Shown here: positions 5,432-62,730 of the stretch, in pieces
How the letters are laid out: each line of letters opens with the position of its first letter
How positions within the stretch are numbered: the stretch's first letter is position 1
NCBI RefSeq assembly: GCF_026151205.1
Contig: NC_087079.1
Location: forward strand, 5,227,230 to 5,291,229
DNA: 64,000 nt
Reading direction: 5' to 3'
From: Bolinopsis microptera
Taxonomy: Eukaryota > Ctenophora > Tentaculata > Lobata > Bolinopsidae
Made by a program: the position numbers and the translations under genes
The notes under the pieces: model-generated
Seen by the model: the letters and a program-made list of their open reading frames with translations, nothing else
Database searches by the model: none
Told to the model about the DNA's origin: nothing

Positions 5432-8400
5432 ACTTACTTACTTTGGGCGATCCTCAATCGAAATCCCATTCACTGTCTGCCTCCACACGTCTCGATCGCA
5501 CATAACAGTTCGAAGGTCGTCTAACTGGAGCCCAGTGTCACGAGCTACTACGTCCAGGAAGGTGAGTGGTCTCCTTCCACGGCCCGATTGGGCAAGTCGC
5601 CAGGGGAGGATAGTGGAGATAACTTGGTCAGAAGCTCTCATGCAATGCCCAGCAAATCTGGAACGCCTCGACGCAACCACTGAGGCAATAGATGGAAGGT
5701 TGCCATAGATCTGCTTGAGGGTTGGATGCTTCTTCCACGAGATGTTCTTGGCCTTCATTAAAAGACGGGTGTAGCATCCGTTGAGGCGTTTCTCAAGCTG
5801 CTTGTTTATGGTCCATGTCTCTGATCCATAGAGCAATACTGGTTCGACACAGGCTCTAAAGAACTTGACTTTCAGTTGTTCGGAAATGCCAGAGGACCAG
5901 ACTTTTTGCAGTTTAATACAGGCTGACCAGGCCATTCCTTTCCTTGTGTTGAAATCCTTTCTACTGTCCGCAATGAAAGAGCCGAGGTATTTAAAGTCAT
6001 CAACCTGTTTAATCTGGCGGCCTGAGATAGAATGTAAGTCGACAGTGTCAGGGATATTGATGGACATGAACTCGGTCTTAGAAGCATTCATAGCAAGACC
6101 AACTTGTGCGGCTGCATTTTCAAGGTCTGTCAGCAGAAGTTGGACTTGCTCTATGGTGTCTGAAATTAAGGCTAAATCATCAGCAAAGTCAAGGTCTGTG
6201 ATTTTGACCGCAGGCACTCTTCGGCTTTTCCTAGGCACGATGGTAAGACCGAATTCGTCACCCATGCAGCTTCTGAGGACATAGTCAAGGACGACGATGA
6301 AGAGAAAGGGTGCTAGAGTGTCCCCTTGAAGAACTCCAATAAGTGTCCTAAAAAAGTCAGTAAGGCCGTCGATGGTCTGGACACGAGAGAACGATGAGTC
6401 ATAAAGAAGCCTGATAGCATCTACAAGTGGAGTAGGGATACCGTAGAGGGAGAGGATGTGGAAAAGGGCATCCCGGTTAATGCTGTCGAACGCTTTCGAA
6501 AAATCGACAAACACAATTGCGGCTGAACGATTTCCGATCTTGCATTCCTCGAGTATACGACGTAGGGCAAGGACCTGTGGGAGTGTGGATCTTCCTCTAC
6601 GGAAACCATTTTGGTTTGGCCGCAAGAGGGGATCAATGAATGGGTAGATCCGGTTGAGGATGAGCTTGTTAAAAACTTTCGCTGCAACCGGTGCCAGTGA
6701 AATGCCACGGTAGTTTCCTGGATTAGTAAGATCACCCTTTTTGGGGATAGGAATGATAGAGGCCGTTTTCCAGGCTTGGGGGATCACACCATCCATGAGT
6801 GCTTTATTACAGAATCCGAGGAGGTTTTCACGTAGCTGGGGAAGCTTCCAGACTGAGGGAGGGATGCTATCTAGACCGGGTGACTTGGAGGACTTGGCGG
6901 ACTTCAGAACCGTGTCGAGTTCTGACATGCTGAAGGATGAGCAGCTGATGGGCAGGGTGTCAGAGACTCGCTGGTTGAAGAAGGGGAGGGTGAGGTCCGG
7001 CGGAGGCTGTTCTGTGCCTAGAAGGGACTTGAAGTGCTCGAACCAGATGTTGAGCCGTTCTTCGGTAGTGCCTCCTGGCACTTTGCAGTATGGCACAGTG
7101 TCGGAAGATGTTAGTTGCCTGATGATGTGCCAGGAACTGCGATGCCTGTGCTCAGGGTTAGTTTTCTCCAGCAGGTCAGTCTGTTGTCGAATGTGCTGTG
7201 AAGTAGCAGCATTATAGGCTTCGTCCAGTTGCTTCTTTGCGTCTTCAAGCTTTTCCTTGGACGAAAAAGAGGGGGAAATCCTGTGACTCAGGGACGCATC
7301 CTTTAGGATATTGCGATGGTGTGCAATATTAGGATCGTTGTAAGGATTTTCCCGTTTCCTCTTTCTCTTTTTTGGCAACACCTTAAGTGCTGTGCTTGTA
7401 ACGCTTTTAACGAGCAGGTCGTAGTCGGACTCGAGCTCTGCTTCCTCTAGGAGTGCACTGTACCTGTTTTTCACTTCCACTGCATACTGGTGTTTCATGT
7501 TGGAATCGTGGATCAGTGGAGTCCAGTCAATGCTCCTAAGAGGGTCCCGTGCTGGAGTTTTGTTGACTCTGTAGCTGGCTTGAACAAAACATGTTACAAT
7601 CCGGTGATCTGAACCGACAGTTTGCATGATGTTGTACGCTTGACAGTTCTTCACACTATTTGCCCACTTCTTCCGCCAGAGTACAAAGTCAATTTGATGC
7701 TTTGCTCTTTTGGGGTCTTCATAGGTCCAAATTTTATTAGCCGGTTTCTGGAAACAGCGGTTAGCAACTATCAGCTGGTGTTGGTCTACCAGATCCAGTA
7801 GTCGTTCACCGTTGTCGTTGGTTGACATATGGTATGTGAAACCGTAGCTATTACTGAGCTTCGCGTTGAAATCACCGCACACTGCTAGCATGTTGTGAGG
7901 AGGTACCTTAGAGATGATCCTGGTTAGAGCGTTGTAGAATGCAGTTTTTTCTTCAATATCACTGCAGTTAGTAGGAGCATAACATGAGAGGACTGTGAGG
8001 CGAGGATTCCCGTTTACATGGAGCAAGATGATTCTGCTATTAACTTTCTCTACAGATAGGAGAGATTTCTGAATTCTAGGAGATAAAAGAAACCCAACAC
8101 CACCAACCGATGCATTAACTGAATTCTTCGTAGCAGAAGCAGTGATGAGCTGATATGATAAGATGTTTTCAATTCTTAGGGATTCTTTGTGGTGTTGGCG
8201 ATGCTCTTGCAAGGAGATAACATCATTATGATGCAGGAAGGCTGAGTGAGCTAACTCCTGTTTACGTGATACAGGGTTGAGAGTCCTACAGTTGAAGGTG
8301 CTAACCTGAAAAGGGATTTTCCTACGAACTAAAAGGGTAGTAACAGGGTTGCTGCAACTATCAGGACCCACCCCTCCCGGGGGTTTTAGGGAGGGCCCGT

Positions 8401-8830
8401 CATACAGGGAGCTAGCTGCCACTGAGTAGTTAGGGGCTTGAACCCTAGTGCTGTTATCGTGTGTCATCATAAAAGTGAGGGGGGATTTTGTCTAATGGCT
8501 AGACATTGTCCAGGCACGGCGCCACTGCAACCTGGATGTGACACTATAATCCAATACCCTCATCAGTAGGTACAATCACGGGTGCAGGTCTTCATAAACC
8601 CGGCTTGTTTTTCGAGGTATGTGCTCCTCTAGATCCGCCGTGTTTAGTTGACCCAGACAGTCGGATTCTTCAATGACATGCCGGTCTAGCAGGGTCACCT
8701 CGTGCAGGATGTGGCTCTTCACCACGCACGGACGGTCTAAGCTCGATCTAGAGTCTAGACCGAGCCCTGGCCCATATTACAGGACCTTGAAACGGATCAG
8801 TTCAAAATGAAACAGAACATGACCCTCCCC
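5432..8830 (-). mobile_element. full-length RTE-type non-LTR retrotransposon, 3.4 kb
   Basis: The element reads right to left. It has about 360 nt of 5' leader (8471-8830), one long ORF, and almost no 3' UTR: the stop codon lies in a short AAGTAAGTAAG tail, as RTE elements typically end in a brief microsatellite. The 11-bp word AAACATATAAT flanks both sides (5421-5431 and 8831-8841) and is the target-site duplication. An intact ORF, a complete 5' leader and a perfect duplication all indicate a young insertion. It sits upstream of the NBEAL-like gene in opposite orientation. Confidence 0.85.
5438..8470 (-). CDS. endonuclease/reverse transcriptase polyprotein of the RTE element
   Basis: This 1010-residue protein is the single ORF of the retrotransposon. 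Residues about 50-300 are an apurinic-type (EEP) endonuclease that nicks the target DNA: conserved points are FN near 60, LQEH near 87-90, GDFN at 199-202 and the SDH triad at 287-289. The middle is a reverse transcriptase with NYRGISL, the FSKAFDS block, LQGDTLAPFLF and the catalytic FADD about two thirds along. The C-terminal part, with RRSRFAGHCMRA and GRGRRPLTFLD, is typical of animal RTE-like endonuclease-reverse transcriptases. It would carry out target-primed reverse transcription in the nucleus. I chose the methionine at 8470, the first of the open frame; a second Met follows immediately. I see no frame break or missing catalytic residue. Confidence 0.95.
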   Translation of the reverse strand: MMTHDNSTRVQAPNYSVAASSLYDGPSLKPPGGVGPDSCSNPVTTLLVRRKIPFQVSTFNCRTLNPVSRKQELAHSAFLHHNDVISLQEHRQHHKESLRIENILSYQLITASATKNSVNASVGGVGFLLSPRIQKSLLSVEKVNSRIILLHVNGNPRLTVLSCYAPTNCSDIEEKTAFYNALTRIISKVPPHNMLAVCGDFNAKLSNSYGFTYHMSTNDNGERLLDLVDQHQLIVANRCFQKPANKIWTYEDPKRAKHQIDFVLWRKKWANSVKNCQAYNIMQTVGSDHRIVTCFVQASYRVNKTPARDPLRSIDWTPLIHDSNMKHQYAVEVKNRYSALLEEAELESDYDLLVKSVTSTALKVLPKKRKRKRENPYNDPNIAHHRNILKDASLSHRISPSFSSKEKLEDAKKQLDEAYNAATSQHIRQQTDLLEKTNPEHRHRSSWHIIRQLTSSDTVPYCKVPGGTTEERLNIWFEHFKSLLGTEQPPPDLTLPFFNQRVSDTLPISCSSFSMSELDTVLKSAKSSKSPGLDSIPPSVWKLPQLRENLLGFCNKALMDGVIPQAWKTASIIPIPKKGDLTNPGNYRGISLAPVAAKVFNKLILNRIYPFIDPLLRPNQNGFRRGRSTLPQVLALRRILEECKIGNRSAAIVFVDFSKAFDSINRDALFHILSLYGIPTPLVDAIRLLYDSSFSRVQTIDGLTDFFRTLIGVLQGDTLAPFLFIVVLDYVLRSCMGDEFGLTIVPRKSRRVPAVKITDLDFADDLALISDTIEQVQLLLTDLENAAAQVGLAMNASKTEFMSINIPDTVDLHSISGRQIKQVDDFKYLGSFIADSRKDFNTRKGMAWSACIKLQKVWSSGISEQLKVKFFRACVEPVLLYGSETWTINKQLEKRLNGCYTRLLMKAKNISWKKHPTLKQIYGNLPSIASVVASRRSRFAGHCMRASDQVISTILPWRLAQSGRGRRPLTFLDVVARDTGLQLDDLRTVMCDRDVWRQTVNGISIEDRPK

Positions 8831-12500: not shown

Positions 12501-15500
12501 TAGTAGTGTCTAACCTCAGCGCTCACAGCGTTCTCAACACCACTGCTAGAGGCAACTTTAGGATTGCCATTAATGGTAACATTATATATGTTTTAATTAT
12601 ATTAGTGGAGTTATGTAGTTCTAGCTACCAATTATGATAAAGGAATGCTGTTATCTCAATATCAGTTGTGACCTCATGATAGACCTTTACCGATAGTTGA
12701 AATTCGTCATCTAGCGCTAGATTATGCTATGACGATAGATGACACTAGATAACGCTATCTAGCGTCAGATAACGCTAACTACGCGACACTGTCGCCAGAA
12801 TACTCACTATTTGAAGAGAATTTTGGACTTTTTGTGGACAACATCTAGCACTAGATGTCGAATTTTAACGATCGGTAAAGAGGTAAAGGTCTCTCATGAT
12901 CTGGTAGGACGTCATAATAGGAAATGCATTATTCCTCATACTTTTCTGACTTACAGGTATCTTCAACAGTAAAGAGTGTAAAGTTAAGCACAAGCTCTTA
13001 GCTTTGGATTTGTTAGGAACATTCCTTTGTGGAGGAGAGGTAAGCAAGGAATTTATGATTTTGACGACAGTGACGACAGTCTACTTTGTGATGACAGTCT
13101 ACTTTGTGACGACAGTCTACTTTGTGACGACATCTAGTCTTATTCAATGACGATCGTTTTTCAATTTATTTAAATTAAATGTTTCGTTGGTATGGAATTT
13201 CTTTTCGATTTCCTGAACTTTCTATATTTTCACTTTCTATAATTTATTCACTGTAATTCTACATACAGTACTTTATAAATTTATAAAAATTCGAAACCTT
13301 GAAAATTTGGTTAAAGGCAAACCGGCTATATTCAATATTGTGACCCAGTTTTTCTTGTTTATTTATGTCAGCCCTTTTCCCAGATTTGTGTCCAACCACT
13401 TTATTTCAAACTGTAAGATTTCAATTTGGAACCCAATGAATAGAAGGCATCACAATAGTTCTAACGTTCTTTTTTATTATGTGATTTTATCACACCGTTT
13501 TCTGTGCGATTTTATCACACCGTTTTCTGTGCGATTTTATCACACCGTTTTCTGTGTGATTTTATCACACCGTTTTCTCTGTGATTCATCACACCGTTTT
13601 CTCTGTGATTTCATCACACCGTTTTCTCTGTGACTTCATCACACCGTTTTCTCTGTGATTTTATCACACCTTTTTCTCTGTGATTTTATCGCACTGTTTA
13701 TTGTGTGATTTTGTCACACCGTTTCATTGTGTGATTTTATCGCACCGTTTCATTGTGTGATTTTATCACACCGTTTCATTGTGTGATTTTATCACACCGT
13801 TTCATTGTGTGATTTTATCACACCGTTTCATTGTGTGATTTTATTATACCGTTTTCCGGTTTTCTGTGTGATTTCATCGCACTCTTTATTGTGTGATTTC
13901 ATCCCGTTAACCTGCAGTCTCCTCACGTGATTCTGACTGAAGTGTGCTACAACATGTCCTGTCTGGTGTCGGTGAGGGTCTTAGTCCGTGGTAGCACCGT
14001 TATACTGATAAACACCTGATTAATGATTACACGTCATATTACCTTAGTTCTCCCCCCCCCCACTATAACTCCCCCCACTCCCCCTCCCCGTGGTAGCACC
14101 GTTATACTGATAAACACCTGATTAATGATTACACGTCATATTACCTTAGTTCTCCCCCTCCCCCCCCCCACTATAACTCCCCCCCACTCCCCCTCCCCGT
14201 GGTAGCACCGTTATACTGATAAACACCTGATTAATGATTACACGTCATATTACCTTAGTTCTCCCCCCCCCCACTATAACCCCCCCCACTCCCCCTCCCC
14301 GTGGTAGCACCGTTATACTGATAAACACCTGATTAATGATTACACGTCATATTACCTTAGTTCTCCCCCCCCCCCACTATAACTCCCCCCACTCCCCCTC
14401 CCCGTGGTAGCACCGTTATACTGATAAACACCTGATTAATGATTACACGTCATATTACCTTAGTTCTCCCCCCCCCACTATAACTCCCCCCACTCCCCCT
14501 CCCCGTGGTAGCACCGTTATACTGATAAACACCTGATTAATGATTACACGTCATATTACCTTAGTTCTCCCCCTCCCCCCACTATAACTCCCCCCCACTC
14601 CCCCTCCCCGTGGTAGCACCGTTATACTGATAAACACCTGATTAATGATTACACGTCATATTACCTTAGTTCTCCCCCTCCCCCCCCCCACTATAACTCC
14701 CCCCACTCCCCCTCCCCGTGGTAGCACCGTTATACTGATAAACACCTGATTAATTATTACACGTCATATTACCTTAGTTCTCCCCCCCCCACTCCCCCTC
14801 CCCGTGGTAGCACCGTTATACTGATAAACACATGATTAATGATTACACGTCATATATTACCTTAGTTCTCCCCCTCCCCCCCCCCACTATAACTCCCCCC
14901 CACTCCCCCTCCCCGTGGTAGCACCGTTATACTGATAAACACCTGATTAATGATTACACGTCATATATTACCTTAGTTCTCCCCCCCCCCCCCCACTCCC
15001 CCTCCTCGTGGTAGCACCGTTATACTGATAAACACCTGATTAATTATTACACGTCATATTACCTTAGTTCTCCCCCTCCCCCCCACTATAACTCCCCCCA
15101 CTCCCCCTCCCCGTGGTAGCACAGTTATACTGATAAACACCTGATTAATTATTACACGTCATATTACCTTAGTTCTCCCCCTCCCCCCCCACTATAACTC
15201 CCCCCCACTCCCCCTCCCCGTGGTAGCACCGTTATACTGATAAACACCTGATTAATGATTACACGTCATATATTACCTTAGTTCTCCCCCCCCCCCTCAC
15301 TCCCCCTCCTCGTGGTAGCACCGTTATACTGATAAACACCTGATTAATTATTACACGTCATATTACCTTAGTTCTCCCCTCCCCCCCCACTCCCCCTCCC
15401 CGTGGTAGCACCGTTATACTGATAAACACCTGATTAATTATTACACGTCATATTACCTTAGTTCTCCCCCTCCCCCCCACTATAACTCCCCCCCACTCCC

Positions 15501-18500
15501 CCTCCCCGTGGTAGCACCGTTATACTGATAAACACCTGATTAATTATTACACGTCATATTACCTTAGTTCTCCCCCTCCCCCCCACTATAACTCCCCCCC
15601 CACTCCCCCTCCCCGTGGTAGCACCGTTATACTGATAAACACATGATTAATTATTACACGTCATATTACATTAGTTCTCCCCCTCCTCCCCCCACTCCCC
15701 CTCCCCGTGGTAGCACCGTTATACTGATAAACACCTGATTAATTATTACACGTCATATTACCTTAGTTCTCCCCCTCCCCCCCCCCCCCACTCCCCCTCC
15801 CCGTGGTAGCACCGTTATACTGATAAACACCTGATTAATGATTACACGTCATATTACATTAGTTCTCCCCCTCCTCCCCCCCACTCCCCCTCCCCTTGGT
15901 AGCACCGTTATACTGATAAACACATGATTAATTATTACACGTCATATTACATTAGTTCTCCCCCTCCTCCCCCCCCCCACTCCCCCTCCCCGTGGTAGCA
16001 CCGTTATACTGATAAACACCTGATTAATTATTACACGTCATATTACCTTAGTTCTCCCCCTCCCCCCCACTATAACTCCCCCCCCCACTCCCCCTCCCCG
16101 TGGTAGCACCGTTATACTGATAAACACCTGATTAATTATTACACGTCATATTACCTTAGTTCTCCCCCCCCCCCCCCCCCCCCACTCCCCCTCCCCGTGG
16201 TAGCACCGTTATACTGATAAACACCTGATTAATTATTACACGTCATATTACCTTAGTTCTCCCCCTCCCCCCCCACTCCCCCTCCCCGTGGTAGCACCGT
16301 TATACTGATAAACACCTGATTAATGATCACACGTCATATTACATTAGTTCTCCCCCTCCTCCCCCCCCACTCCCCCTCCCCGTGGTAGCACCGTTATACT
16401 GATAAACACCTGATTAATGATTACACGTCATATTACATTAGTTCTCCCCCTCCCCCCCCCCCACTATAACTCCCCCCCCACTCCCCCTCCTCGTGGTAGC
16501 ACCGTTATACTGATAAACACATGATTAATTATTACACGTCATATTACCTTAGTTCTCCCCCTCCCCCCACTATAACCCCCCCACTCCCCCTTCTCGTGGT
16601 AGCACCGTTATACTGATAAACACCTGATTAATTATTACACGTCATATTACCTTAGTTCTCCCCCCCCCCCCACTATAACCCCCCCCACTCCCCCTCCCCG
16701 TGGTAGCACCGTTATACTGATAAACACCTGATTAATGATTACACGTCATATTGTAACCTTAGTTCTCCCCCCCCCCCCCCCACTATAACTCCCCCCACTC
16801 CCCCTCCCCGTGGTAGCACCGTTATACTGATAAACACCTGATTAATGATTACACGTCATATTACATTAGTTCTCCCCCTCCCCCCCACTATAACCCCCCC
16901 CACTCCCCCTCCCCGTGGTAGCACCGTTATACTGATAAACACATGATTCTACTACACGTCATATTACCTTAGTTCTCCCCCTCCTCCCCACTATAACCCC
17001 CCCCCCCCCACTCCCCCTCCCCGTGGTAGCACCGTTATACTGATAAACACCTGATTAATGATTACACGTCATATTACATTAGTTCTCCCCCTCCCCCCCC
17101 CCCACTATAACTCCCCCCCACTCTTCCTCCCCGTGGTAGCACCGTTATACTGATAAACACCTGATTAATTATTACACGTCATATTACCTTAGTTCTCAAA
17201 CATTTGAGCGACAATAAATTTAGGTGGCCCTCTCTTTCAAAATTACCTCGTCTAAAAAAAGTAAAAAATGAATATCCTGCCGAAAGTTTTGGCACATAAA
17301 TCTTTGGGAACTAAGGTTTAATATACTGCTATTAGTGGTGTTAACACCTGATTCTCTGAAATATTATAGTATTTTAGTATGTCTGATCTCTTGTTGGTGA
17401 AGATTAGATTTAACTTTGATTCCGAGATTTGATCCCCCGGTCTTAGTGACCTGATCCCTTGTTCTTAGTAATGTGATCTTTAAAGAATAGGATCGTTCAA
17501 AGAGGAGATCCACTTGTATTAAAACACTTAGCAGAGATTCAATTAATGTTACGGTATCTCTTAAATTGAACCTAATTAGCTTTATTAGTCCTATTAGCCT
17601 GGTCAGCTGCTCTTCACTGTTATATCTATCATTGAAATGATCAGCCTCCTCATTTTTCATTGATCTGAGTTCTGACCCGTCTTTGTCTAGAAATATCATC
17701 TTATATCTCGTACATTTGATATCAATGTTAACCGGGATGTAATTATATCAAATAAGCACAGGTTTTATGTGTCCTCTGATTAACTACAGATTTTCAGGTC
17801 ACGTGATTATTAATTATGACTAATTAATTATGACTAATTAATTATGACTCATTGTCAATACCTGTCTTAGCTCCTGAGAGGTATGATATTGGGAATATTA
17901 ATTGAACTGAATTATATAACTGATGAACTGGTTATTTTTCTCATAAATTTCTAATTTTCTGGTAAAACCCACCCCAAATTTAACCTGTCTCTAATATTAT
18001 AATATTATAATAACCCAGGAAACAGCGTGTGGTATTATAAACGACAGTACGTTCACAGCCTTACTCTCCCTGATAAACACGTGCCCTGAACACAGAGACC
18101 TAGTTATACAGTGTGTTCTTATCTACATTCAGCAGACCCACAACTCCAGACCTGATAAGGTAGGACATCCTTCGTTCGTTCGTTCGTTCGTTCGTTCGTT
18201 CGTTCGTTCGTTCGTTCGTTCGTTCGTTCGTTCGTTCGTTCGTTCGTTCGTTCGTTCGTTCGTTCGTTCGTTCGTTCGTTCGTTCGTTCGTTCGTTCGTT
18301 CGTTCGTTCGTTCGTTCGTTCGTTCGTTCGTTCGTTCGTTCGTTCGTTCGTTCGTTCGTTCGTTCGTTCGTTCGTTCGTTCGTTCGTTCGTTCGTTCGTT
18401 CGTTCGTTGTATTTTGTGTTACTTGATATTAGTTCTGATTTGGAGCGCAGCTAACATATTATGTAATAATGAATATGTCGATTATAATGGTAATCGGTAA

Positions 18501-24500: not shown

Positions 24501-27500
24501 TGTCATGGTAACTAGTGTAGTTGTCATGGTAACCAATCTAATTGTCACGGTAACCAGGGTAGTTATCATATAAACACTGCTTTTCTGCAGGGTATAACTG
24601 TTCCAGAGATAAAAGTGTGGCCGCACGGTAAGAATTGTTACACGTTTGTGTGCTGGTTTAAACTAGACCTGAAGAGTGCCGGACGTCGTCCCATGTCCCC
24701 CGACACAACCCTCTGTGAAGAGAGATATACCTTATACAGGTTAGAGAACTGGTGTACATGTATCAGATTAAGAAACTTTGACGAAAGTTTGGGCATTTTC
24801 GAAATACATTTTGTACATATTGGAAATATTATAATTAAGGTTATTTCATGATTGAAAATATATTGTTTTCATGACACAAATAACTTTATTAAGACATGTG
24901 TTTTCAGTTTTTACAATGCTAACGGCTACGGGTTCGAAGGATTCTTCCGACCGGACGGAACACTACACATAGCAGTTTGTAACCGAAAAGAATTCACAAC
25001 AACTTCTGTTGATCACAACTTTCTAGACAACAAATGGGTAAGCAAGAGATTCTGAACCAGTTTCTGAGTTCTTAGAATCGTTTGATTGGAATCAGTTTCA
25101 GATGTGAACCCTGGCTTGGTGCTTGGTGGGTTTTACTATAATAGTAGGACGACTCCGAAAGCCGATTCCAACAAAATTACAAATTTCGGCTGAATCAGTT
25201 ATTATTAGAACCATGCAACTATGAGAAACCCCATTGATATGTCATATGGTAATACCATTCTCACTAACACATATTTATACATATTATAAACAAATAAAGA
25301 CTCCAACAATACTACTATAACTAGTGTATAGTTCTACCATATGTATAATATAATTTCAGCATTTCCTTGGTATTTCTCACCGTAGCCCCCCGCCAGTACC
25401 CACCAAATTCCCGGTACAACCTCGTACTGATCCCACTTTCTCTGCCAGCCCTCACGTGATGCCCTTATATGGGCATCATCTCACGTGATGCCCTTATATG
25501 GGCATCATCTCACGTGACCTATGGATCTCGGTAATCAGCGGGGAGGTGACCCATATTGACGCTACAATAAGCGAGACTTTTCGTTTAGTAGTCAGATTAA
25601 TCCGAATTACGCATAGTTCTGGAGTTGCATGTTGATTTAAACTGATTTTATCGAGTTTATTTTTTGGAATCGACTCCAGAAAAAAACTTCGATGAAATCA
25701 ATTTAAGCACTCAATGAGATCAGTAAAGGCATAATATTTGTTTAACTGTGTGCCCTCTACGTTTTTATGGGAGAAAATATGCGTCACCTCTCCATGAAAA
25801 CCGTTATTCATTTAACCATGATCATGCCCAACATATCGGACTCAGTAATTCTTATCACGCCCCTTTTCAATGTAGATTTTAGGAGCATCCCTACATCTTT
25901 AGGAAACTACGCTTGGTAAGTTGTCATGGTAACCAGTGCCACAGGGTGCCCAAATTATGTACTTCTTACAGCCATGTTTCTTCTCACCAAGTCCTTAATT
26001 CTTTATCTTATTGGAGCTCGATGCTTTATCTGTTGAGTGGATTGTTCTACTATAGATGCTCATAAACTTTCAAGGGTTTATGAAATTATCGACAGCTTTA
26101 TTAATATTATCGGTATTAGGACGGTTAAAAATCATGCTGCTTCACATTTCACTTCATCCAATGCAATGTAACGATCCAAATCATCCCCGATTCACATACA
26201 GCAGCCTCTATGATTGTATCCTTGTAATCAGGATGATAATCGTGTATTCTACATCTTTACACTGTTCAGAAGATAAGAGAAGTGTTGTACAGTGTACTCC
26301 GTGTACATTGTACAATGTACATTGTACACGGAGTTGTACTGTACTTCTTGAGGATTAACTTTGGGAGACTCTAAAACCAATTCTACCCCTTAATTATTAG
26401 CTCCTTTATTTTTGCATGATGCATAATTTCAATGGGAAATGATTATACTTTTATCTAAATTTCATTCAACTTATTTCAAGTTAAACCCAACTTTTCAGCA
26501 CTTTCTGGGCATCTCCCACCGCGGGTCTCCCCTCCTGGGAATGGGTGAAGTGTGTGTCAGGATAGACAAGAAACTTACCAACAAACTCCAACTAGCTTCC
26601 ATTAACTGTAATCAGGTAAAACTACCACAGGGATATTTTAAACAATTATATCGATATATGATAATTATTAATATATTATTATATATATATATTTATAAAT
26701 AAACTACATGTAAATAATAAATATACATGTAGTATATTTATAAATATATAGCTTAGTAATGTTATTGGGATAATATTATAATAGCTATAATAGAATAATT
26801 TCCGACATGTTCTGATTCTAACCCACTTTAAATATATTCCTGGAGGGGGATTTGTTTGAAAACATATAATATAAGATATACGAAAAGTTTGTTTTAGCAG
26901 GAGCTTTCAAAATACACGTGTAAATCGTCTTATATATTCCATTTGTCAGAGGAAGGGTTTTTTAATTTTCTACGAAAGTGGAAGGTAGGCCCCCGCCTAA
27001 CTGCCGGACTTAAGTTCATCTTATCAAGGGGTAAAACATTGTCATACAGCGCCGGGCCCATCATATTGATTAATGGGTCGTTGAAGGGGGTGCATGCGAA
27101 AGGGGTGAATGCTGCATGTGGAGCCGTACTTGATATGAGTCATGTCTTCACTCATCAATATCAGATTCGAATTGGTGATAAGAGCCACTAAATAGGGCCC
27201 TAAATAACGGTTGATTTCTTGAGAAGCCCCGGAGATAATTGTAAAATAATGATGTGGAGATAAAGCTTGTAATTTAAATTGTATTATACTAACATAGTCA
27301 GATCGAGGCCAGGTTTTAAGATTTGATTACTGCCGAGATAACCGGAAGCGGACTAGTTAACGACCGGATCGGAGTTGTTGATATGGAGTACAATGTTATC
27401 ACGACATGTGGTGAACAATGCGCGCTCATTATTGCACGTGTGTCCTGAGGACGTGATATTATAAAACAACTGTTATTATTAAATTGTCTTGATGAACAGC

Positions 27501-30500
27501 GCTTCGTAAAAACCTCGTACATAATGAACAGTGAACGTTATATATCAACAGTAAACAGTTAGGTAGGTTATGGGAAGTTAAGTAGGTCATGGGCCCCAAT
27601 TCGCGTCGCACATACTGGGGTATTATTTGTGAAGCAGAAGGAAAGTCGGATGAAAATACAGAGATTTGGGATGAAACTAGACAAAGTTGGGGTCTAATTA
27701 TCGCAAAATTAGGCCCCCGACTGAGAGCCGGTCAACAACCGCCCAGTCTAACTGATAACCAATTTTATTTTTTCTTGGTTCTCTATGGCGGTAAATTTTT
27801 TGATCATAATTTCTTGCTTAATTGTTGAATAATTTTTTAGATCGGCTCCTTTACACTTGATTAAAACGTTCAATTTTATGGTGGCCCAGTTCAACTACCT
27901 TTTACGTCATATTCATGAATTTAAATATTTCTTTTTCCTTTTAGACGGATCACGTGTTCACCGTATGGTACTGCCTTGGAGCCACCTTGAATTTTATAAA
28001 TCTGATCCTAACGTGGCCATATGATGGCTTGTTTTAATGGAAGAGGAGTTTGTCAGGTAGAAAAAACCTTAACCTTTTTGCTTCTCCAAGAACAATTCCA
28101 ACTACACATGTTTTTGGTCATATATTTTGTGACCAAACTAATATGAATCCTATCTGCACAAAATTATATGTTGTCTGCACACTAAACTTCTTTCAACTTT
28201 TCAAGGCATGGTTTGTTATTTACTCATTGGATGCTTTTACTTTATGAAGATTTTACGTACACTAAATGAAAAATCGCTGATAAACTGTAAAAACTTATTA
28301 AAATTAAAATACAGTATAAAACAATTATAATGTACCGTCGTTTCGGTGAACTGAAATTAAAAACATGTAAGTTCAACACAGCAATAGATTGGAAAGAGTT
28401 TATTAACTAACTTTTCTAATCTGAGGGTTTAAAATAAATTATTAAAGTTAAGTTAATAACACTCGTTCATCAACTTTAGGAGAGACCTCAAGATTAAAAG
28501 CATGCTGCATCTAAAGATCGAAACTGCAATTATATCTGAACAACGTGATTTAAACGGACAACCGCTAGTTTTATTAAGTACAATTCAAGTCATCACATCG
28601 ATATCAAATGCTGTAGAACTAAAACTTAAACTGTTCTTTCACTTGATATATAATATCATGTAAAACATGCATAAAGCTGAACTAGAGATCTGAACCTGGG
28701 GAGGTGAACCATGATTTGTTCTGACAAGTGACAGTGATCGACAAGCCAGCTTGTGACCAATCAAAAGCCATGATCACCATCACGTGACAAAGCAAATACA
28801 GTTCACCTGCCCACCCAGAATCCAGATCTTGTGGGTATCTACAATAACGTAAAAATACTTTTACTGCTGTTACTGCAGTTCTCGTAGCGTTAAAATACTT
28901 TAACTATTGATGACGGTAACCATGGTTACACATCATCTACTGTTCGAGAGTTTATCTGGGAGGTTATGCGGAGGATCCGGAGCCAGCCATATCCAACACA
29001 GCCGTGGAGACCATGGTAACACCATTCACGATGAGAAGGAGGGTGAGGCCGACTTTGTAGCCGCTCTTATTAAGGTATCGGGTGAAGTAAAGACCAATAG
29101 GGGAGGCCATTATAGCCACCACTGCACACACAAGGTACAGCCAGATGTCCTCCATGACAAACCAAGTGGTACTACCGTACTCCTCTGGGGGTGGGTTAGC
29201 CAGATAAGTGATAATTCTGACGCATGTGTTTACTGCAGCGATGACCGCTCCGTTTGCTTTTACCTCTACTGGAGGAAACTCGTATACGAAGAAGAATATT
29301 ATAAGGGGTGGACTTCTCACACCAATGAGTCCGGCGAGGAACCCGCTGAATAGACCAGCTACACACATCCAGATTATCTTCGGCCTGATTGGCCAGAAGG
29401 TCTGACTTATATCCTTAATTACCATCTTCATCTTGGTCTTGTTGTCTGTGGACTCCTTCTTTCCTGCCATCTTGCCGTTTTCCAGTAATCCGTCGTGTTC
29501 AGCATGGTTTCCGTTGGTGAGGGGCATGACAACGAGGTCAGTGTTGTGTTTTTCAAGGACGAGCCTCTGCTTCTCACTCCTGTCCCACTCCTTCGGGTTA
29601 TCTTCTCTCATAATGTCGTTTCGTCTTCTGGAGTCCTTCATCGTGAGTTGTCCTGAATTCCTCTATCTGATTCTTGCTGACTTTAGGTTTACTCTTGCTC
29701 ACTGTTTTGTAGCCCAGGTCTTTCATCTCGGAGAAGCATGCAGATTCGATCAGTTTAACGTCCTCGTCAGTTAGTTTACCGGTAGCCTTCCATCCTTCTG
29801 TCTGCTTGGTCTTTGTCTTTTTCTCGGGGGCCCCTCCAGACAGGAACTCATCCAGTTGATCCATCTGTTTACCCTTGTCTCCGACCACAGACTCGTAGTT
29901 AACCCTGTAGACACTGCCCTCTGGAAGTTCAGCTGCGGTTCTCTGCAGTTTAGCCCAGTTCTCTGCTTCAACGTAGACGTGGGAGTTGGCGTTGCTGGTG
30001 CTCTGGATCACGTCTCTGGGGTCTCGGTAAAGGTACACGAACTTGATTCTGCTTCCGAACTGTTTCTTTAGTTCCTCGTGGTATTCACCGGTTGTTTCCG
30101 ATTTGCAAAGCCAGGTGTTGCAGTTGTGAGCCTCTGTGTAGGTGTCCATTACAGCCTCAAACACAGCCGCTAGGGTGCGCTTCTCTCCGCACATCTTCAG
30201 GATGGAGTTGGACTCGAAGGAGAGTGGGTTTTTGCTCGAATCCAACCATGGAAGCGGGTTACTTTCGATGAACTCACACACTGAGTTTATCAGGGTTCTG
30301 AAGTTCTCCTCAGCAGTAAGGTCTCCGAAACTCTCCAGGATGGGAGCGAAGTGTTGGAAGATACCTGCTGCAGGTGGAGAAGCTATCTGTGGGTTCCTGT
30401 CGCTGATCAGCCCATGAAGCCAGTCACTGTCCTCCTTCTGGGATCCTACCACGAAGAACACGTCACTCTTTGCAGTTCCGTTAGTCCCTTCTTCCAGACC

Positions 30501-33500
30501 AACCTCTACCATCTCATATTTGCTTTGTTGTTTAGCAGCCCTCCAACCCCTCCATAAGTTAAATGCCTGCCATGCAGCTACCGCTATCGTTACAACTCCT
30601 ACGATTATCTTTAGGACTTCCGAAGGGGTGTAAGCTTGTAGGATTTGTCCGAGAGGAGCTCCAACCAGTTGCATTGGCACCATGGTCAGGATTAGATCCC
30701 ATCTAAAGTTCTTCCGGAGGTTCACGTTCCAGAGGACTATTGGTTGGATGACGGTCATGCCTATGGTCTGGATGAATACCGCATACTTTAGTCCAGGTAG
30801 TGCGCAACACTCTGTTAGTCCTGCTAGTGCACCGATCTGGTATACGAACAGGTAGCAGATGGCCATGCCGAAGCCCATGGCACTGAAGGCCACATTTCCG
30901 AAGAAAGTTGCCGCGGCAAAGTGTGCGATCACAGGAATGTTAAGCATCTTCCTAAGATAATGTTGGGTTAGTAAAATGTATGTCGATCATCGGGAAGATG
31001 TCTAAATGTAACATTTGGAAAATATTAAGATATATTTCGGTTTTAACAGTTTTACTATTTAGTAAAATGTCAAGCAATGGAGAACAGAACTAGACTAATA
31101 GAATGATAAATTATAGAAAATTCTACTGCAACTAAAATCAGGTCATAAACAAATATCGGGTCAGGTAGAAATGTTGTGCTGAGTTTCAGAATTACAATGG
31201 AACTTTGTTGGCCGGGTCACTTTATGCTTTAAATCCAAACTAATCGAAATTTAGGAATTTTTCATCAAATTAGATGACCTAGGAATTAGATTTTCGGTAT
31301 GTAAATGCAAGTAAGCTGGTCCGGCTAGTATAAATTTCAGATTGTGAGGGTCCAAAAATCAGCGTTTCACCTCTGCAGAAAATGCGAGTAGAATGAATGA
31401 ACTGGAGAATTAACGAATTATGCATCAATTACGTACCTGATTAATAAATTGTCTTGATGAGTATGTATTGGATTTCCGAGAATTGGATTTGGAAATGTGA
31501 ACCCTAATTCGATCAGTACCAGTAAAGTGCAACAAGGAGTTAAAACCGCAAAAAATAAACAATGCCGAAACAAAAGCTCTCGCAAACATCACTCTAAAGT
31601 CACGATTACGTAATCACTACGATAAAACAATAGCAACACACATTAACTACCTAACAGAAGCAGATAATTACTTAATAGCTAAACGTAATGCTCCTTACCG
31701 CCAAGTTAAGACCATTATGACGGCTAATTAGTAATTAAAGGGACTTTAATATAACACGTCATGCGGGGGGTGGGAATTACAAGTTCACGCACGTGGGGAG
31801 TTAGTTCACGTGTGGGCTTGCAGTCGGTTGCAGTACACGTTTTGCCCACACCCCCAATGAGTTATACTAGCTGCTGGAGAGAGAGAGAGAATACAATGTA
31901 CATCATGATGGATGATGGTGCACGGGGTTTCATGCGGGTCAGCATTAGCTCCGGCACTTTCTAGGTAGTGACACGCTGCACTGTCAAGTAGATTTATCTA
32001 GATTGTATCTACCTTACTGCCTTGTTCTGACTTGGGCGGGAGGGGGAGTTGGGGGCAACAGGAACTCAGTCCCTTTCGGTCTGCTTCAGTTTCGCTCTTA
32101 ACTATCTAATATCTTGAGTGTTGGTTTGGTTTGAATTGTCGAACAAACTTAGGTTCAGGACCTTCCCCCGTGGACGTATATAGGCAAGGTGCTAGAATAT
32201 GGGACACTATCGGCTACCGTTCTAACTTTAAATAAGCCATATAGTGAACACTGCCTCACCCTCTTGGTATTATTGGAGAAGTCAGGGGGTCAGTTCCTAG
32301 CATCGTGGTATACTTTCCTAATTCTTTTGTATATATACATCAAGAGGAGGCTATAAATGGTCACTGGTAAATTTGTGGTGGACTGGGGATATTATAAGCA
32401 ATTCATCTCATTACTTTGCAGAGTTTTGCAGGTCTTTAGTCTAGATTTTCACTGGCGAATGATTCGAATTGAGGCCGAGAAAATGATTTAAGTTTTAAGT
32501 TTCAAGGAACTAAGGTCAAGGAGGCTTCGTTGTATGAGTGTTTTTATAGCTTATATTGTTATTAGAATGGGATTTAAGCAAACATTTAGTAAGCAAGTGA
32601 CCGGATTTGAAATAAAACTTTGTGATAAAAATGGGATAAAAAACCTCGCAGGAAAAAATTGGAGCACTGAATAATGAACCAAAATAAATGATCGAAGCAC
32701 AAAGATGTTTTCTTTATATAACTGATACAAGTTATATCACGACCGACCGATCAGGATGTGTTGGGGGTGCCAAGCCGGATATTTCTGGAAGCATTCCCAC
32801 AAATCTGAATAACAAAATCACGCAGAAAATCCATTTTATAAAAATTTCTGCGACCAAGATCTGCATAATCTCATCCGCTTCACAGAAATTAAGTTCCCGG
32901 TAAGAGGAAATTTAAACATGATCCCCGGCATCGCGATTTCAATTTGGAATTCACTCAAGATTCGTTCTGAAAATTCGATCGATAATTTCGTCATCAAAAT
33001 AAACTTAAACTAAACTTATTTTAAGTTTAACAGGTTGTATTTTCGATGCGTGTTATACACGTCATAAACCTGGCTCCTATCAATATCGTGATCAATAAAC
33101 CTAGTGATTTTAAAATTAGTTTAAATTCGCTGATCAGCTCGCTACCTAAAATTTCTGAAATGCTGGTGAAATGCTGGAATTGTAAGAACATCCTGATCGT
33201 GATTTAATTTATTTTCTTTACATTTCCTTATTTATGTGAACGGAGTCCTCGTGCTCTCCTTCCTACCGTATGCAGCCGCAAATTAAAGCCCTCTTCCTTT
33301 CGCCTTTGACCATTCTTGCTAATGCAAATACGGTCTAGGAAGAATTGAAGCCTTTAATTGAACTGAAAGAGCACTATCTGGCAGAAATAAACGAGGAAAA
33401 ATGGAAAACCTTTAAATTAAAAAAGCTGCCCGTTAAAAACAAAGAAAAAGACAATACGATAAGATAACAGAAACCTGTACGTGCTATTCTAAAGAAGCGA

Positions 33501-36500
33501 GGTGTTAGTGTTACCTCGTACATTTGGCCTCAGCAATAGTCCGGAAATGCGGACAATACTCTCATATTATTCTTAAAACATTGTGTCTGAACAATGCGGA
33601 GCCCTACGGCACACTCGGATGAGTTACTGAACATAAACTAAGGCACTTGAAAAATTGAAAACAAGTTTCCTGTTAGAGGGTAGTGAGACGTATCACCATT
33701 GTTTGGATTGATGCCAAAAGTCGCCCAAATTATTCTGGACTACTTCTGTCCTTCCTGGTCGTGCGATGTGTGCATTGGCAAACTCCCAGCCATCTCTTTG
33801 TGATTTGGCACAGCTTCCTGGACAAGGAGGAGCTAAAAATGGCAACAATACGTTGGGTAGAGATTAGAGTTTGGGTTTAAAGTACTTATACTCTATAGTT
33901 ATTTGAACCTTTGCATGGTATGGCCGACCAAGACAAAGCTATTTTCACCTGAAGGAATTTGGGACAAACTCTAAAGAGGAACTGTGAACCCTGATGTGGG
34001 ACAGGGATATATGGAAGAGGTTATCTAGCGTAGATCGGTCTTAGTTTCGACCTAGTGGTAGCAGTAGTACTCGATGTACTCCAACTACCTCTTAAGTGAT
34101 TTAGCACGGTTGTCCGGCAAGAAGCTTCCCGGGCAAGAATGTATGGAGCTACGAAAAGGCTAATGTGGAACCACGAAAAGGCAAAAACGTAGAGTTTAGA
34201 TTTTAGATTTTTTAGTGCTCCCACGATCTTCCTTATGACGTACGGATATAAGATAAATTATTTTCCCCGACGTCAGCAGGGAAAATACGTCAGGAGAAGC
34301 CCTTTGGCATGCCCTGTACGACACAAAGTGTGATTCAGACAGAAATTAAAACTATCATAAGCTAAACTATTTGCGTGGAATGGATATTGTGTTCCTAAAT
34401 TACTTTGTGGTTAAAACTTAACCCCCTTGCACGCAAAGTGTGGAGCTACTTGGAGGAAAAGGTTAAAATACGTGAGGTTAATGAGTGATCACTGATCGCC
34501 TTGTTGTAGTTACCAGCAAACGACAAATTATTTTCTCCGATGTCAGAAAAATTTCCCAGAGGGTGCTGAAAATTCAATTTCCCGGATGACCTAGAAGAAA
34601 ATAAACCGCGAAGTATTGAAGAATGCTGCCTTGTCCGCTTTATAAACAGACATTCCGACTCCTATCTTATACTAAAGTTGCCCTGAACAAGGCATCGGGG
34701 GTCCCCTTCACTATTTGAAACTTTTACAGTTACACCCCGATATCTCCCCTACCAAAAGTATGAATTTCATTGCCTAATAAACGTTTGGGAGCTGGTACAT
34801 CAAGGAAGTTGGAGTTTGGATTATATCTAAAATTAGTCAGCACTGGATGCCCTATTCATCAAGAACGTTTCCGAGGAACTTCAGGACCTTCAGGACACCT
34901 GAAGTTCAGGTGTCAGTGTTACTAACTATCTAACAGGATGAAGTTTGAAGAGGAAAGTGGGACCTGCGCCGGCCTCGGTCAGGGGATCAGACCAAGTGAC
35001 GCTTCTGCTTTTGTACTCAAACCACTGACAAAAGTGTTCTCATGGTTCAAGGGACACTTGGGTGGCCGACATCAAAGGAATACCTTTTGCAATTTCTGGC
35101 AAAACGAGATTGAGTATAAATTCTAGTAAATGCACCAATAGGACAGTAATTATAATTACATTGAGCTGAACTATAAGAACTAAAGTAGGACGAATATAAA
35201 CTCGACTATTTCATCCCAGTTCCCCAGAAACGAAACTTGGAATACAGCCTTCATTACGGTGGTTAAACTGAATTTTCCATCAACATAACCTAATTTAAAA
35301 ACTAGATTAACAAGATTAATCATCGCGATCGTCATTCACGCCGGTTCACAGCCAATGCGAGGAAAGAATATTATTTCCAATGTTGGGAAAGTGCTGGGCG
35401 TACAATGGGGCCACCGACTGGCAGTCGGAGAAGAAGATGGCGTACGATTAGAGTTAGACCCGGGGGGGTCAGACGAATGAGTGAAAATGACGCCACTGTT
35501 GTGAGCAACAGGGAGTATTAGAAAATTAGAGGAGCGGTTTAGTCGTGTGATAATCAGATGTGGGTTAAGAAGGCAATTAAGGGAGACAGCTAGAATTGAT
35601 CCAATTATTATCGACTAGCACTTTGTGGGTGTACTGAGCTAGCACTTTGTGGCGGTACTGAGCTAGCACTTGTTATTTAAAGAAAAGATACGTGACGTGG
35701 TACTCCCGCTCGTACGTGGGTTTATAAATTGTGCAAAGATGGAAATAATGAACAAATAACGGTTGATATTCCTACAATTTAAATGGGTGAGAGGCCCCTA
35801 TTAGTTTATTGAACAGTATCTGAAGATAGATAAGATTATCTTCTTCCTGCGTACGGTCATATATGAACATAGTCATCAAAACGTAATTCAATTTAATCGT
35901 CGATAAACTGTTGTGCTGAACTCATTTTTAAGAGCGTGTGGCGGTGAGTCACTCACATGGTGATGTGAGCCTTATCGGCAACTTTTCGGCAACTTATCGG
36001 CACCAAATTTCTATATTTTCAAACGTTTGTACCTCATTGGACACTTTTAACTATGCATGATTACGATGATATCTTAGTATAAATATGAACAGTCGTCCCA
36101 GTTTTTTACAATGTTATATTTAAAACTTTATTGTATATCTGGACTTTTAATCATAATTCAAATGAAATCTGTTTGCTAAAGCATGTTAGGTTGCCTGCAC
36201 CTTACATGCGACAAGCTTGCAGTTCATGAGTTATGCTAATATTTTAACGAATTTCATGAGTTATGCTAATATTTTATCGCGATTGTAGCTTATCCATTCC
36301 AATTCGATCAAAAGGTGCACGGTATAGAAGTATATAACCTGGTATAATGAAGTTCACCTAATCCCCGGTAGCCTCTCGATTCTCGAATAACCTGACAAGC
36401 GAATTTTATGTACTCCATTATTGGGCCCTATATGCATGGCCATGTACTGTGACGTTTTGTCATGGAATACAGCTCGACGTGTACTAAAGTGCGATATGAG

Positions 36501-57511: not shown

Positions 57512-58884
57512 CTATTTGATGGCCAGGAACACAATATAAGTACTGAGACTGCCAAGTACTCTACCAAGTGCCCCATGGACACCCATAATAGTGCCAATAG
57601 TTGCCTTATCTGCACTACTACTCCCGATCTCGGATGCGTACCTCAAACAGAGAGTTAGGATCTGACCGCTGGTTGCTGCGAACAACAACACCAAGATGGA
57701 CGGTGTGATATCATCCAGGAACCAGACCGGAACACCTTCAGAGCGGGGTTGGAGGTTACACATTACCATCAGGAAAACAAAGAGCAGCCGCGCAGTGGTA
57801 TACCAGGGTATAACACGTCGTCCTGGAAACTCCGCGACGCGTGCAAATAGACGTCCTAGTAGATCTCCCACGTTGAACACCAGAAACAAGACCACGGGCA
57901 GGAAATACCGGACTGCCCAGGTTGAACTGGGATCTCGTCCGTAGACGTGAGGGTTGACAGGACTGCGGGAAACATGATGAAGGTGACGTAGAGGACAGAG
58001 AAGCAACAATACCCCTGGGTAAAGGTGTCCTTTATCAGCTGGTACATTGGGGTCCTTTCCGTCTTAGACTCAGTTGACTCCACGTCTGGTGACACTGGAG
58101 ACTTAGAGTCCACCTCCTTGTAACTCTCCTGGTAGTAATGGCAGTGGAACTGGGAGAATAACACCAGGGACACTAACAGAATCACAGCTGCTGCTACAAA
58201 GTACCAGAACCCTGCCTCCACGAAGTCTATCCCGGGGATAGACAAAGTGACGATATTGAGCACTGATGCGATTATCCCTGCCAAGGTCATGCCGATCAGG
58301 AACGCTTCAGTGTAGATAGTGTTCATAGAGGAGGTGACAGCCCACATGGTGCTGATAAACATAGCCCCACCACCGCACATCATACAAAAACATACTTCCG
58401 TCAGGAGGAAGAAGTCTTTAGCCCACAACGTGGAGTCCACTTTAGCCAAGACCGCTGTCAGCACGAACATGCTGAGCATGACTGAGTTTGAGAAATAAAT
58501 CAGTTTTGGGATCTTGATGTAGCGAACTAAGGGTACCGTCAGGAAACTGATACACACGTCCGTGCATATTGCTCCGGTTTGGAAATAGTTCTGGAAGTTT
58601 TCTTCGATGGCCGGAGTGGAGCCGTTGAACTTGGACTCGAAGTAGGAAGTTGCTGTGATGAACATATTCCAGGGTGTTAGAGACGCAATCCCGAACATCA
58701 CGAACATACAGAACAAATGGCCAGACCACGGCTTCGTGTCGGAGTCCGAGATCTGTGTTTTGTCGACGTCCTCGCTGATGGGCTTGTACAATAAGCCGTT
58801 AGACTCCAGAAAGATCGCCTTCCTAGTCTCTCCTAGTCGGGGGGACAGGATCTGTACTTCCATTTCCTGGATGAAATTTGGCAA
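57512..58884 (-). CDS. equilibrative nucleoside transporter (SLC29/ENT family), one frame break
   Basis: The upstream frame (58884 to about 57930) carries a cytoplasmic N-terminus, then GIASLTPWNMFITATSYF, the ENT signature of membrane helix 1, and further helices through FWYFVAAAVILLVSLVLF. A charged loop (about residues 235-265) and the start of helix 7 follow. The rest (about 57960 to 57512, YFLPVVLFLVFNVGDLLGRL to VHGALGRVLGSLSTYIVFLA) lies one base off, near the codons for STDEIP/DPSSTW. ENT proteins have 11 helices and move nucleosides down their gradient, and the joined frames would supply them all. There is no GT-AG intron at the break, so it is either a sequence error or inactivation. 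CTAATTGCCAAATTTCATCCAG before the second Met (58863) looks like an acceptor, so translation may start at MEVQILSP rather than at 58884. Confidence 0.9.
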
Positions 58885-61620: not shown

Positions 61621-62730
61621 AAAATAAAAAAGATCATTCCGCAGCAGTACCTAGGATTATACCGGGATGACGGACTTGCAGTAATTAATAAAACCAACGG
61701 CCAGCGTCTTGATAAAATTAGGAAGCAACTACACTCACTATTCCAAAAAGAAGGCCTAAAAATAACGGTGGATCTCTGTCAGCATTCGGTTGATTTCTTA
61801 GATGTCGTGCTCGACCTAACAGACAAGTCATACAGACCTTATAGGAAACCAAATGACACACCATTGTACATTAACGCAGAATCCAATCATCCTCCCATCA
61901 TATTGAAGAACTTACCCTCAATGATAGAATCACGATTGATAAGCATATCCAGCAACAAGACATGCCTAAATGAAGCCAAAAGCGATTATGAGAAGGCAAT
62001 TAGAGATAGCGGATATAGTCACACCATCGATTATAAAACACCACCGCCTAAAAAGAGAAAGAGATCGCGGAAGAGGAACATCCTATGGTACAATCCCCCA
62101 TTCAGTGCAAACGTTTCAACCAACATCGGAAGAAAGTTCTTCGCTCTTATCGATAAGCATTTCCCGAAAAACCTACCGTTACATAAAATCATCAATAGGA
62201 ATACCGTGAAAATAAGCTATTGCTGCATGCCCAGTTTGGGAAGGATACTCAAAGGGCACAACAAATCAGTCCTAGAGAAACAATCTGAAAAGAAAAAAGC
62301 TCCAGAAAAAGAGTGTAATTGCAGAGACGCCTCGAAGTGCCCCCTCAAAGGACAATGTCTGGCCAAATGCATAGTATACCAAGCAACCGTTAAAACGGCA
62401 TCTAACAAGGAAACGGCCTATATTGGATTGACTGAAAACAGTTTTAAGACACGGTGGTACAATCATCGACAAAGTTTTAAGAATTCTAAGCACAGACTGA
62501 GTACCGAGTTATCAAAATTGATATGGGACCTCAAGGAGAAGATGATTGAATATAGCATAGACTGGAAGATTATTACTAAATCGAAGAAATATAAGGCTGG
62601 AGCGGGGCATTGTGGCCTCTGCTTAGACGAGAAACTATACATACTTAAAACCCCAGGCATTATTAATAAAAGATCAGAAATTATTTCTAAATGTAGGCAC
62701 TCTAGGAAATTCTTAGTTAGACATATTTAG
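61621..62730 (+). CDS. Penelope-like RT C-terminus with GIY-YIG endonuclease, 5' truncated
   Basis: The open frame runs from a TAA at 61618 to the stop at 62730 and has no proper start, because the 5' part of the element is missing. It begins inside the reverse transcriptase palm at YLGLYRDDGLAV, where YRDD is the catalytic aspartate pair, followed by the thumb region (KEGLKITVD...DFLDV, PYRKPNDTPLYINAESNHPP). A basic stretch (KKRKRSRKRN) and a cysteine cluster (CNCRDASKCPLKGQCLAKC) precede the GIY-YIG endonuclease: VYQATV, AYIGLTENSFKTRWYNH, with the catalytic arginine in KTRW. This order is that of endonuclease-bearing Penelope-like elements, which nick DNA and prime reverse transcription at the target. 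The fragment is incapable of autonomous movement, yet its frame is uninterrupted. Confidence 0.9.
   Translation, partial: KIKKIIPQQYLGLYRDDGLAVINKTNGQRLDKIRKQLHSLFQKEGLKITVDLCQHSVDFLDVVLDLTDKSYRPYRKPNDTPLYINAESNHPPIILKNLPSMIESRLISISSNKTCLNEAKSDYEKAIRDSGYSHTIDYKTPPPKKRKRSRKRNILWYNPPFSANVSTNIGRKFFALIDKHFPKNLPLHKIINRNTVKISYCCMPSLGRILKGHNKSVLEKQSEKKKAPEKECNCRDASKCPLKGQCLAKCIVYQATVKTASNKETAYIGLTENSFKTRWYNHRQSFKNSKHRLSTELSKLIWDLKEKMIEYSIDWKIITKSKKYKAGAGHCGLCLDEKLYILKTPGIINKRSEIISKCRHSRKFLVRHI

Follow-up and report, generated by a model that had tools for sequence, protein, structure and literature searches.

Enzymes and anion carriers can be joined in one chain, as in SulP carriers fused to carbonic anhydrase, where the enzyme stands at one end of the polypeptide. 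Among sulfotransferases, the tyrosylprotein sulfotransferases (TPST1 and TPST2) act in the Golgi lumen and are not housed in a transporter, and in CurM and an olefin synthase (4gbm, 4gox) the sulfotransferase is one module of a biosynthetic synthase. We know of no member of the TauE/SafE (TSUP) transporter family that holds an inserted enzyme, nor of an established substrate for its animal or algal members. TSUP transporters have been described as poorly characterised (PMC5840216). Here we describe a gene of the ctenophore Bolinopsis microptera (264.65 Mb of genome sequence, 232 contigs) that encodes a TauE/SafE transporter with a whole enzyme domain, a sulfotransferase, between its halves, so that it shares the one-chain design of the SulP fusions but places the enzyme between the carrier halves and not at an end. 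The gene lies in a 64-kb stretch of DNA, hereafter the window. We propose, at a probability of about 0.5, that the family to which it belongs couples sulfonation dependent on 3'-phosphoadenosine 5'-phosphosulfate (PAPS) to export through an anion carrier, the enzyme domain of the window copy being probably a pseudo-enzyme.

The gene is read on the minus strand as two overlapping open reading frames (ORFs), with the following features.

29598..30947, minus strand: ORF 1 (P0001), 449 amino acids, TauE half 1 and sulfotransferase domain (ORF and Pfam)
30537..30917, minus strand: first half of TauE/SafE, positions 2-114 of the PF01925 profile (Pfam, residues 11-137)
29841..30455, minus strand: Sulfotransfer_3 domain, positions 3-210 of 216 of the PF13469 profile (Pfam, residues 165-369)
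30420..30446, minus strand: 5'-phosphosulfate loop site, degenerate, GSQKEDSDW as against GSQRSGSNW in paralogue P0019 (motif table)
30360..30377, minus strand: position of the PHPPHI motif, degenerate, PPAAGI (motif table)
30000..30029, minus strand: 3'-phosphate motif YRDPRDVIQS, intact (motif table)
29598..29641, minus strand: frame-change overlap of ORF 1 and ORF 2, where relatives stay in one frame
28964..29641, minus strand: ORF 2 (P0002), 225 amino acids, linker and TauE half 2 (ORF and Pfam)
29012..29392, minus strand: second half of TauE/SafE, positions 121-237 of the PF01925 profile (Pfam, residues 84-210)

A preliminary description of this DNA had placed a sulfotransferase with a YRDPRDVIQS motif between the halves of a TauE/SafE exporter, all on one strand, and had proposed a domain search. 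Pfam confirmed this order. Both TauE matches exceeded the curated cut-off of 32.6, at 40.8 bits (E 2.6e-10; profile positions 2-114 of 237) in ORF 1 and 44.5 bits (E 2e-11) in ORF 2, which contains GFLAGLIGVRSPPLIIFF. Between them, the Sulfotransfer_3 match reached 38.4 bits (E 2.2e-09; curated cut-off 27), and a hidden Markov model (HMM) of the bacterial enzyme family covered residues 161-448 of ORF 1. Together the TauE matches make up two complementary parts of a single PF01925 profile, with the sulfotransferase at their seam, and the 3'-phosphate motif was found intact. The preliminary description counted four membrane segments before the insert; an AlphaFold model of P0019 showed five helices of at least 10 residues there (5-25, 29-42, 54-75, 84-105 and 110-137).

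The preliminary description did not mention that ORF 1 and ORF 2 use different frames. Their overlap is 44 bases long, and the window copy has no single open frame, as might be expected if two unrelated genes stood side by side on the strand. However, a search of 5.8 billion proteins with ORF 1 returned 13 relatives, and P0003, which matched at 98% identity over 98% of ORF 1, carries both parts in one frame of 683 amino acids (its first 23 residues precede the window start codon and may be untranslated). Both parts are likewise in one frame in P0004-P0009, at 80 to 39% identity, and in the paralogue P0019, a single open frame of 702 amino acids on contig C2 of the same genome. Since P0003 covers ORF 1 and ORF 2 in a single frame, the two are parts of one gene. 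Intact relatives with the same order, together with TauE matches that complement each other within one profile, rule out chance neighbours, and we consider two unrelated genes, the outcome against which the preliminary description had set its claim, to be barely credible. The frame change in the window may stem from sequencing error, from allelic variation or from true decay of the gene.

A genome search with the bacterial enzyme gave matches at two places only, the window gene and P0019. Because exons for MAM, LDL-receptor and Ig domains flank P0019 on the same strand, it looks like an intronless gene nested inside another gene. A duplicate of at least window positions 25496-34631 lies on contig C10 (L010, G000 C10:14154500-14163500) and is 88.5% identical, with hundreds of gaps. 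The gene has diverged by 13.7% substitutions and its flanks by 11.8%, and at codon positions 1, 2 and 3 the substitutions number 57, 50 and 61, with no sign of protein-level selection; the duplicate is thus either an old decayed copy or unpolished assembly sequence.

The order of TauE half, sulfotransferase and TauE half is real and conserved. At least 23 proteins in the database carry both Pfam labels (TauE and Sulfotransfer_3), and two further proteins, P0005 and P0007, were recognised by a sulfotransferase HMM built here. Eukaryotes named among the matches listed were the dinoflagellate Prorocentrum cordatum, Thalassiosira exigua and Ditylum brightwellii. The two P. cordatum sequences with both labels (P0145 and P0146) have the order sulfotransferase, PP2C, TauE half 2, with two TauE stretches each, and TauE half 1 stands at the start of P0145 as judged from its sequence. 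Protein kinase or PP2C domains share the loop in some other fused members as well: P0162 (TauE half 1, protein kinase, sulfotransferase) and P0153 (kinase, sulfotransferase, PP2C, TauE half 2) both look partial, and their overlap would imply a full TauE-kinase-sulfotransferase-PP2C-TauE chain. We also observed a TauE protein without the enzyme domain (P0015, T. minuscula) and one chain with isochorismatase, sulfotransferase and PP2C domains (P0154). The survey that the preliminary description had called for thus indicates a widespread eukaryotic family, common to a ctenophore and microscopic algae, rather than a single oddity. The titles and abstract openings of the literature matches listed held no description of the fused architecture or of the bacterial gene pairing reported below; going by these searches, the architecture is undescribed, in agreement with the earlier remark that no protein with this order was known.

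We then considered the origin of the inserted enzyme. Fragments aside, its nearest relatives without TauE are about 335 amino acids long, with 34-41% identity in most rows, and two of them are named bacterial; one sulfotransferase of this length, P0066, had no NCBIfam match. A scan of bacterial and archaeal genomes with the patterns QRSG and PPHI yielded 171 relatives. The bacterial sulfotransferase (PF13469) shows homology over nearly its full length, and canonical eukaryotic members share its QRSGSN and PHPPHI motifs, but it is a separate gene beside a transporter and not fused, and the window copy lacks both motifs. The bacterial-enzyme HMM matched over positions 2-334 of 335 in P0019 and 3-306 in P0001, where it ended at the frame change. 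The insert includes the enzyme tail, in which one Q was conserved in all nine aligned rows. As the match in P0019 spans almost the whole model, tail included, a nearly complete bacterial-type sulfotransferase was inserted. A tree of 113 domains placed the fused proteins and those eukaryotic or unnamed sequences akin to them, 36 rows in all, in a single clade (100/100); P0001, P0022 and P0032 were dropped from it by choice, as were sequences covering 230 or fewer profile positions. This clade, which consists mostly of rows without a species name, is consistent with a single entry of the enzyme into eukaryotes. A viral carrier was also considered and rejected, as 34 pattern matches in viral contigs included no relatives.

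The bacterial relatives proved to be paired with a transporter of another kind. We sampled the best 80 of the 171 bacterial loci and counted neighbours by an HMM recount of the fetched stretches. A gene of the chromate transporter family (CHR) was present in 77 of the 80 stretches and lay within 500 bp of the sulfotransferase in 71, always on the same strand (71/71), upstream in 50 and downstream in 21. Because gene order changes while the strand is kept, this pattern suggests selection for the pairing of enzyme and carrier. Adjacent pairing was seen in Pseudomonadota (31/37), Bacteroidota (13/14), Nitrospirota (8/8), Kiritimatiellota (3/3), Cyanobacteriota (10/11), Planctomycetota (1/1), Myxococcota (1/2), Thermodesulfobacteriota (2/2) and Vulcanimicrobiota (2/2); Leptolyngbya PCC 7375 (L055) and Moorena (L033) are among the bacteria that have the pair. 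Adenosine 5'-phosphosulfate (APS) kinase, alone or with ATP sulfurylase, occurred at 27/80 loci, as counted by HMM with Pfam on representatives.

Other enzymes of sulfate metabolism were seen at or among these relatives. An arylsulfotransferase was found by the same means at 9/80 loci (L028, L029, L030, L068, L070, L075, L082, L086 and L087; the match in L068 is HMM-based). In eight of these nine stretches, L086 excepted, a CHR gene lies within 500 bp of the PAPS-type sulfotransferase, and L070 also carries a GH123 glycosidase. It is possible that the arylsulfotransferase and the PAPS-type enzyme form a relay of sulfate groups across the membrane. In P0183, the sulfotransferase is fused to CysQ, an enzyme that removes 3'-phosphoadenosine 5'-phosphate (PAP).

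We compared the active-site motifs of 24 proteins. QRSGSN and PHPPHI were kept in 18 of them, three with small departures (ERSGSN in P0140; QRSGSS and PQPPHI in P0149; PHPPHM in P0153), and both were intact in P0019. Variants also occur at two bacterial loci (PRSGSN at L065, PHPAHV at L037). Both motifs were lost in the window copy, which has QKEDSD in place of QRSGSN, and in P0003-P0007. P0004 and P0007 also deviate in the 3' motif, which the window copy retains. The degenerate rows form one clade nested within the canonical rows (99/96). Because the phosphosulfate loop and PHPPHI are lost, the enzyme domain of the window copy probably does not transfer sulfate, and catalysis by this copy was judged unlikely from the motif table.

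A different reading of the insert takes it for a nucleotide sensor, in which binding of PAPS or PAP would gate TauE so that anion export tracks sulfation, with the window clade as a pure pseudo-enzyme sensor or scaffold. Against this, canonical members from bacteria to animals keep an apparently full active site, PAPS-making enzymes stand among the bacterial neighbours, one relative is fused to CysQ, and the 3' motif departs in two of the degenerate proteins themselves. We regard a sensor as rather unlikely.

The loss of active-site motifs could also mean that the gene in the window is decaying or already dead and that the paralogue on C2 does its job. The two frames in this assembly and the intact 702-residue paralogue agree with this, and the C10 duplicate indicates that far decay of this stretch is possible, if it does not reflect assembly noise. 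However, the 98% identical P0003 has a single open frame of 683 amino acids, P0003, P0004 and P0005 share 88-91% identity in their TauE halves, and, one frame change aside, each part of the window gene is open across its domains. Moreover, if the C10 stretch is unpolished, the frame break in the window may be an error too. A dead gene is therefore improbable in our view, and a conserved transporter around a probable pseudo-enzyme that has been retained as a structural or regulatory part would fit the window copy better.

Relatives of the window copy also bear on what may follow loss of the active site. P0012 lies inside the degenerate clade (100/98) in a TauE tree with long branches, in which 6 of 19 forks are starred, and it has no sulfotransferase match. 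Its residues from 215 onward align from position 481 of P0006, in which the enzyme envelope ends at 496, a thin hint that the enzyme may have been deleted after it decayed. P0013, of the canonical group, also has no sulfotransferase domain and may be a mispredicted gene artefact. The ratio of sulfotransferase to TauE divergence was 2.5-4.7 in four close degenerate pairs and about 2 in two distant ones, as compared to 1.1-2.75 in six canonical pairs, of which the two closest gave 2.75 and 2.15.

For members with intact motifs, such as P0019, the proposed coupling of sulfonation to export would most likely work as follows. A bacterial-type enzyme, nearly complete and seated in the loop between the transporter halves, would use PAPS to sulfonate a small acceptor in the cytosol. 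The transporter around it would then move either this product or a linked sulfur anion through the membrane. For the same job, bacteria appear to use two adjacent genes, this sulfotransferase and a CHR-family transporter, and about a third of their loci have a PAPS-making enzyme nearby. The principal argument, which is inferential, is that two unlike anion carriers join the same enzyme, one by fusion and the other by neighbourhood. Architecture, relatedness, motif loss and gene neighbourhood are thus observed directly, whereas the use of PAPS, the cytosolic site, the direction of export and the coupling to a substrate are inferred. The coupling of sulfate transfer to anion export, which the preliminary description had proposed for the window gene, thus stands as a good hypothesis for the family, in view of the bacterial gene pairing, but not for the window copy, whose 5' loop and PHPPHI are lost; the mechanism is plausible for the former and catalysis improbable in the latter.

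Several observations weigh against this proposal. The CHR gene was not adjacent at 9/80 loci, and APS kinase was not seen in 53/80 of the fetched stretches, some of which are short contigs. The CHR partner and TauE belong to different transporter families, so that the parallel is functional and not homologous. Two CHR representatives passed the NCBIfam chromate efflux subfamily model and failed the ChrA and ChrB equivalogs. The patterns used for the bacterial scan, QRSG and PPHI, make motif conservation among the loci partly a selection effect. Faster decay of a dead domain was not clear-cut, as degenerate and canonical ratios overlap at like distance. P0012 and P0013 suggest that the carrier does not require the enzyme, and the kinase and PP2C domains of some members could point to signalling. 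An exon-by-exon search did not find the PF05935 arylsulfotransferase in the Bolinopsis genome (PF14269 lay outside this search), and the bacterial relay was on this ground rejected for the ctenophore. The odds for sulfonation coupled to export are carried by the neighbourhood and motif evidence, and not by membrane charge or decay.

The side of the membrane on which the enzyme works was assessed from a crude hydropathy count and from charge. In P0009, the enzyme loop falls on the same side as two short loops with 3 K/R versus 1 D/E and 3 versus 0; as these short loops are rich in K/R, a cytosolic position is weakly suggested. Of five proteins counted, four have almost no net positive charge, or none, on the long enzyme loop itself. 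The earlier placement of the enzyme in a cytosolic loop between helices 4 and 5 is thus upheld as to the loop between the TauE halves, tentative as to the cytosol, and at odds with the five modelled helices before the insert.

The nearest solved folds are tyrosylprotein sulfotransferases, with which the enzyme shares its fold; in the fold searches, the matches listed were taken up by the enzyme domain, and the TauE halves had no match of their own among them. This likeness, and the existence of kinase-sulfotransferase and sulfotransferase-PP2C chains with TauE halves, would agree with an enzyme that works on proteins at the membrane in the manner of tyrosylprotein sulfotransferases, TauE serving mainly to anchor it or to recycle sulfur anions and the protist kinase and PP2C forms acting as a signalling hub. 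However, identity to tyrosylprotein sulfotransferases is only 14-17%, and the polyketide-synthase sulfotransferases 4gbm (E 1.5e-06) and 4gox (E 2.3e-04) are the nearest solved relatives by sequence. The loop is predicted, if weakly, to be cytosolic, in contrast to the lumenal TPSTs, and the bacterial enzyme is paired with a transporter. Protein sulfation thus appears doubtful, and we continue to prefer sulfonation of a small acceptor coupled to export.

Elsewhere in the window, positions 13986-17197 hold about 32 tandem copies of a very C-rich 103-base unit, with GC skew to -0.62, and 18171-18408 is a perfect (TTCG)n run of 59.5 copies. A LINE-type open ORF of 1010 amino acids with endonuclease and reverse transcriptase domains lies at 5438-8470 on the minus strand. 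Two overlapping ORFs at 57512-58884 (minus strand) match successive parts of the nucleoside transporter profile PF01733 and are probably exons of one gene. A 320-residue ORF at 61768-62730 (plus strand) had no Pfam match at E 0.01; by eye, we take it to resemble a retroelement-linked endonuclease.

A broader scenario, which we offer tentatively and with the odds somewhat against it, is that of an ancient eukaryotic vectorial sulfonation, in which the enzyme in the loop would sulfonate a small molecule and pass it on to the carrier for export, under kinase and phosphatase control in algae. Bacteria would have separately paired another carrier with the enzyme, and in one animal lineage the enzyme would have died, become a regulator and then been deleted in at least one relative. 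The family offers a natural progression that runs from a working enzyme through a pseudo-enzyme to absence of the domain. The sulfotransferase built into one carrier, and the repeated bacterial pairing of that enzyme with a CHR carrier, suggest a testable substrate class for both transporter families, namely sulfate esters or anions linked to them.

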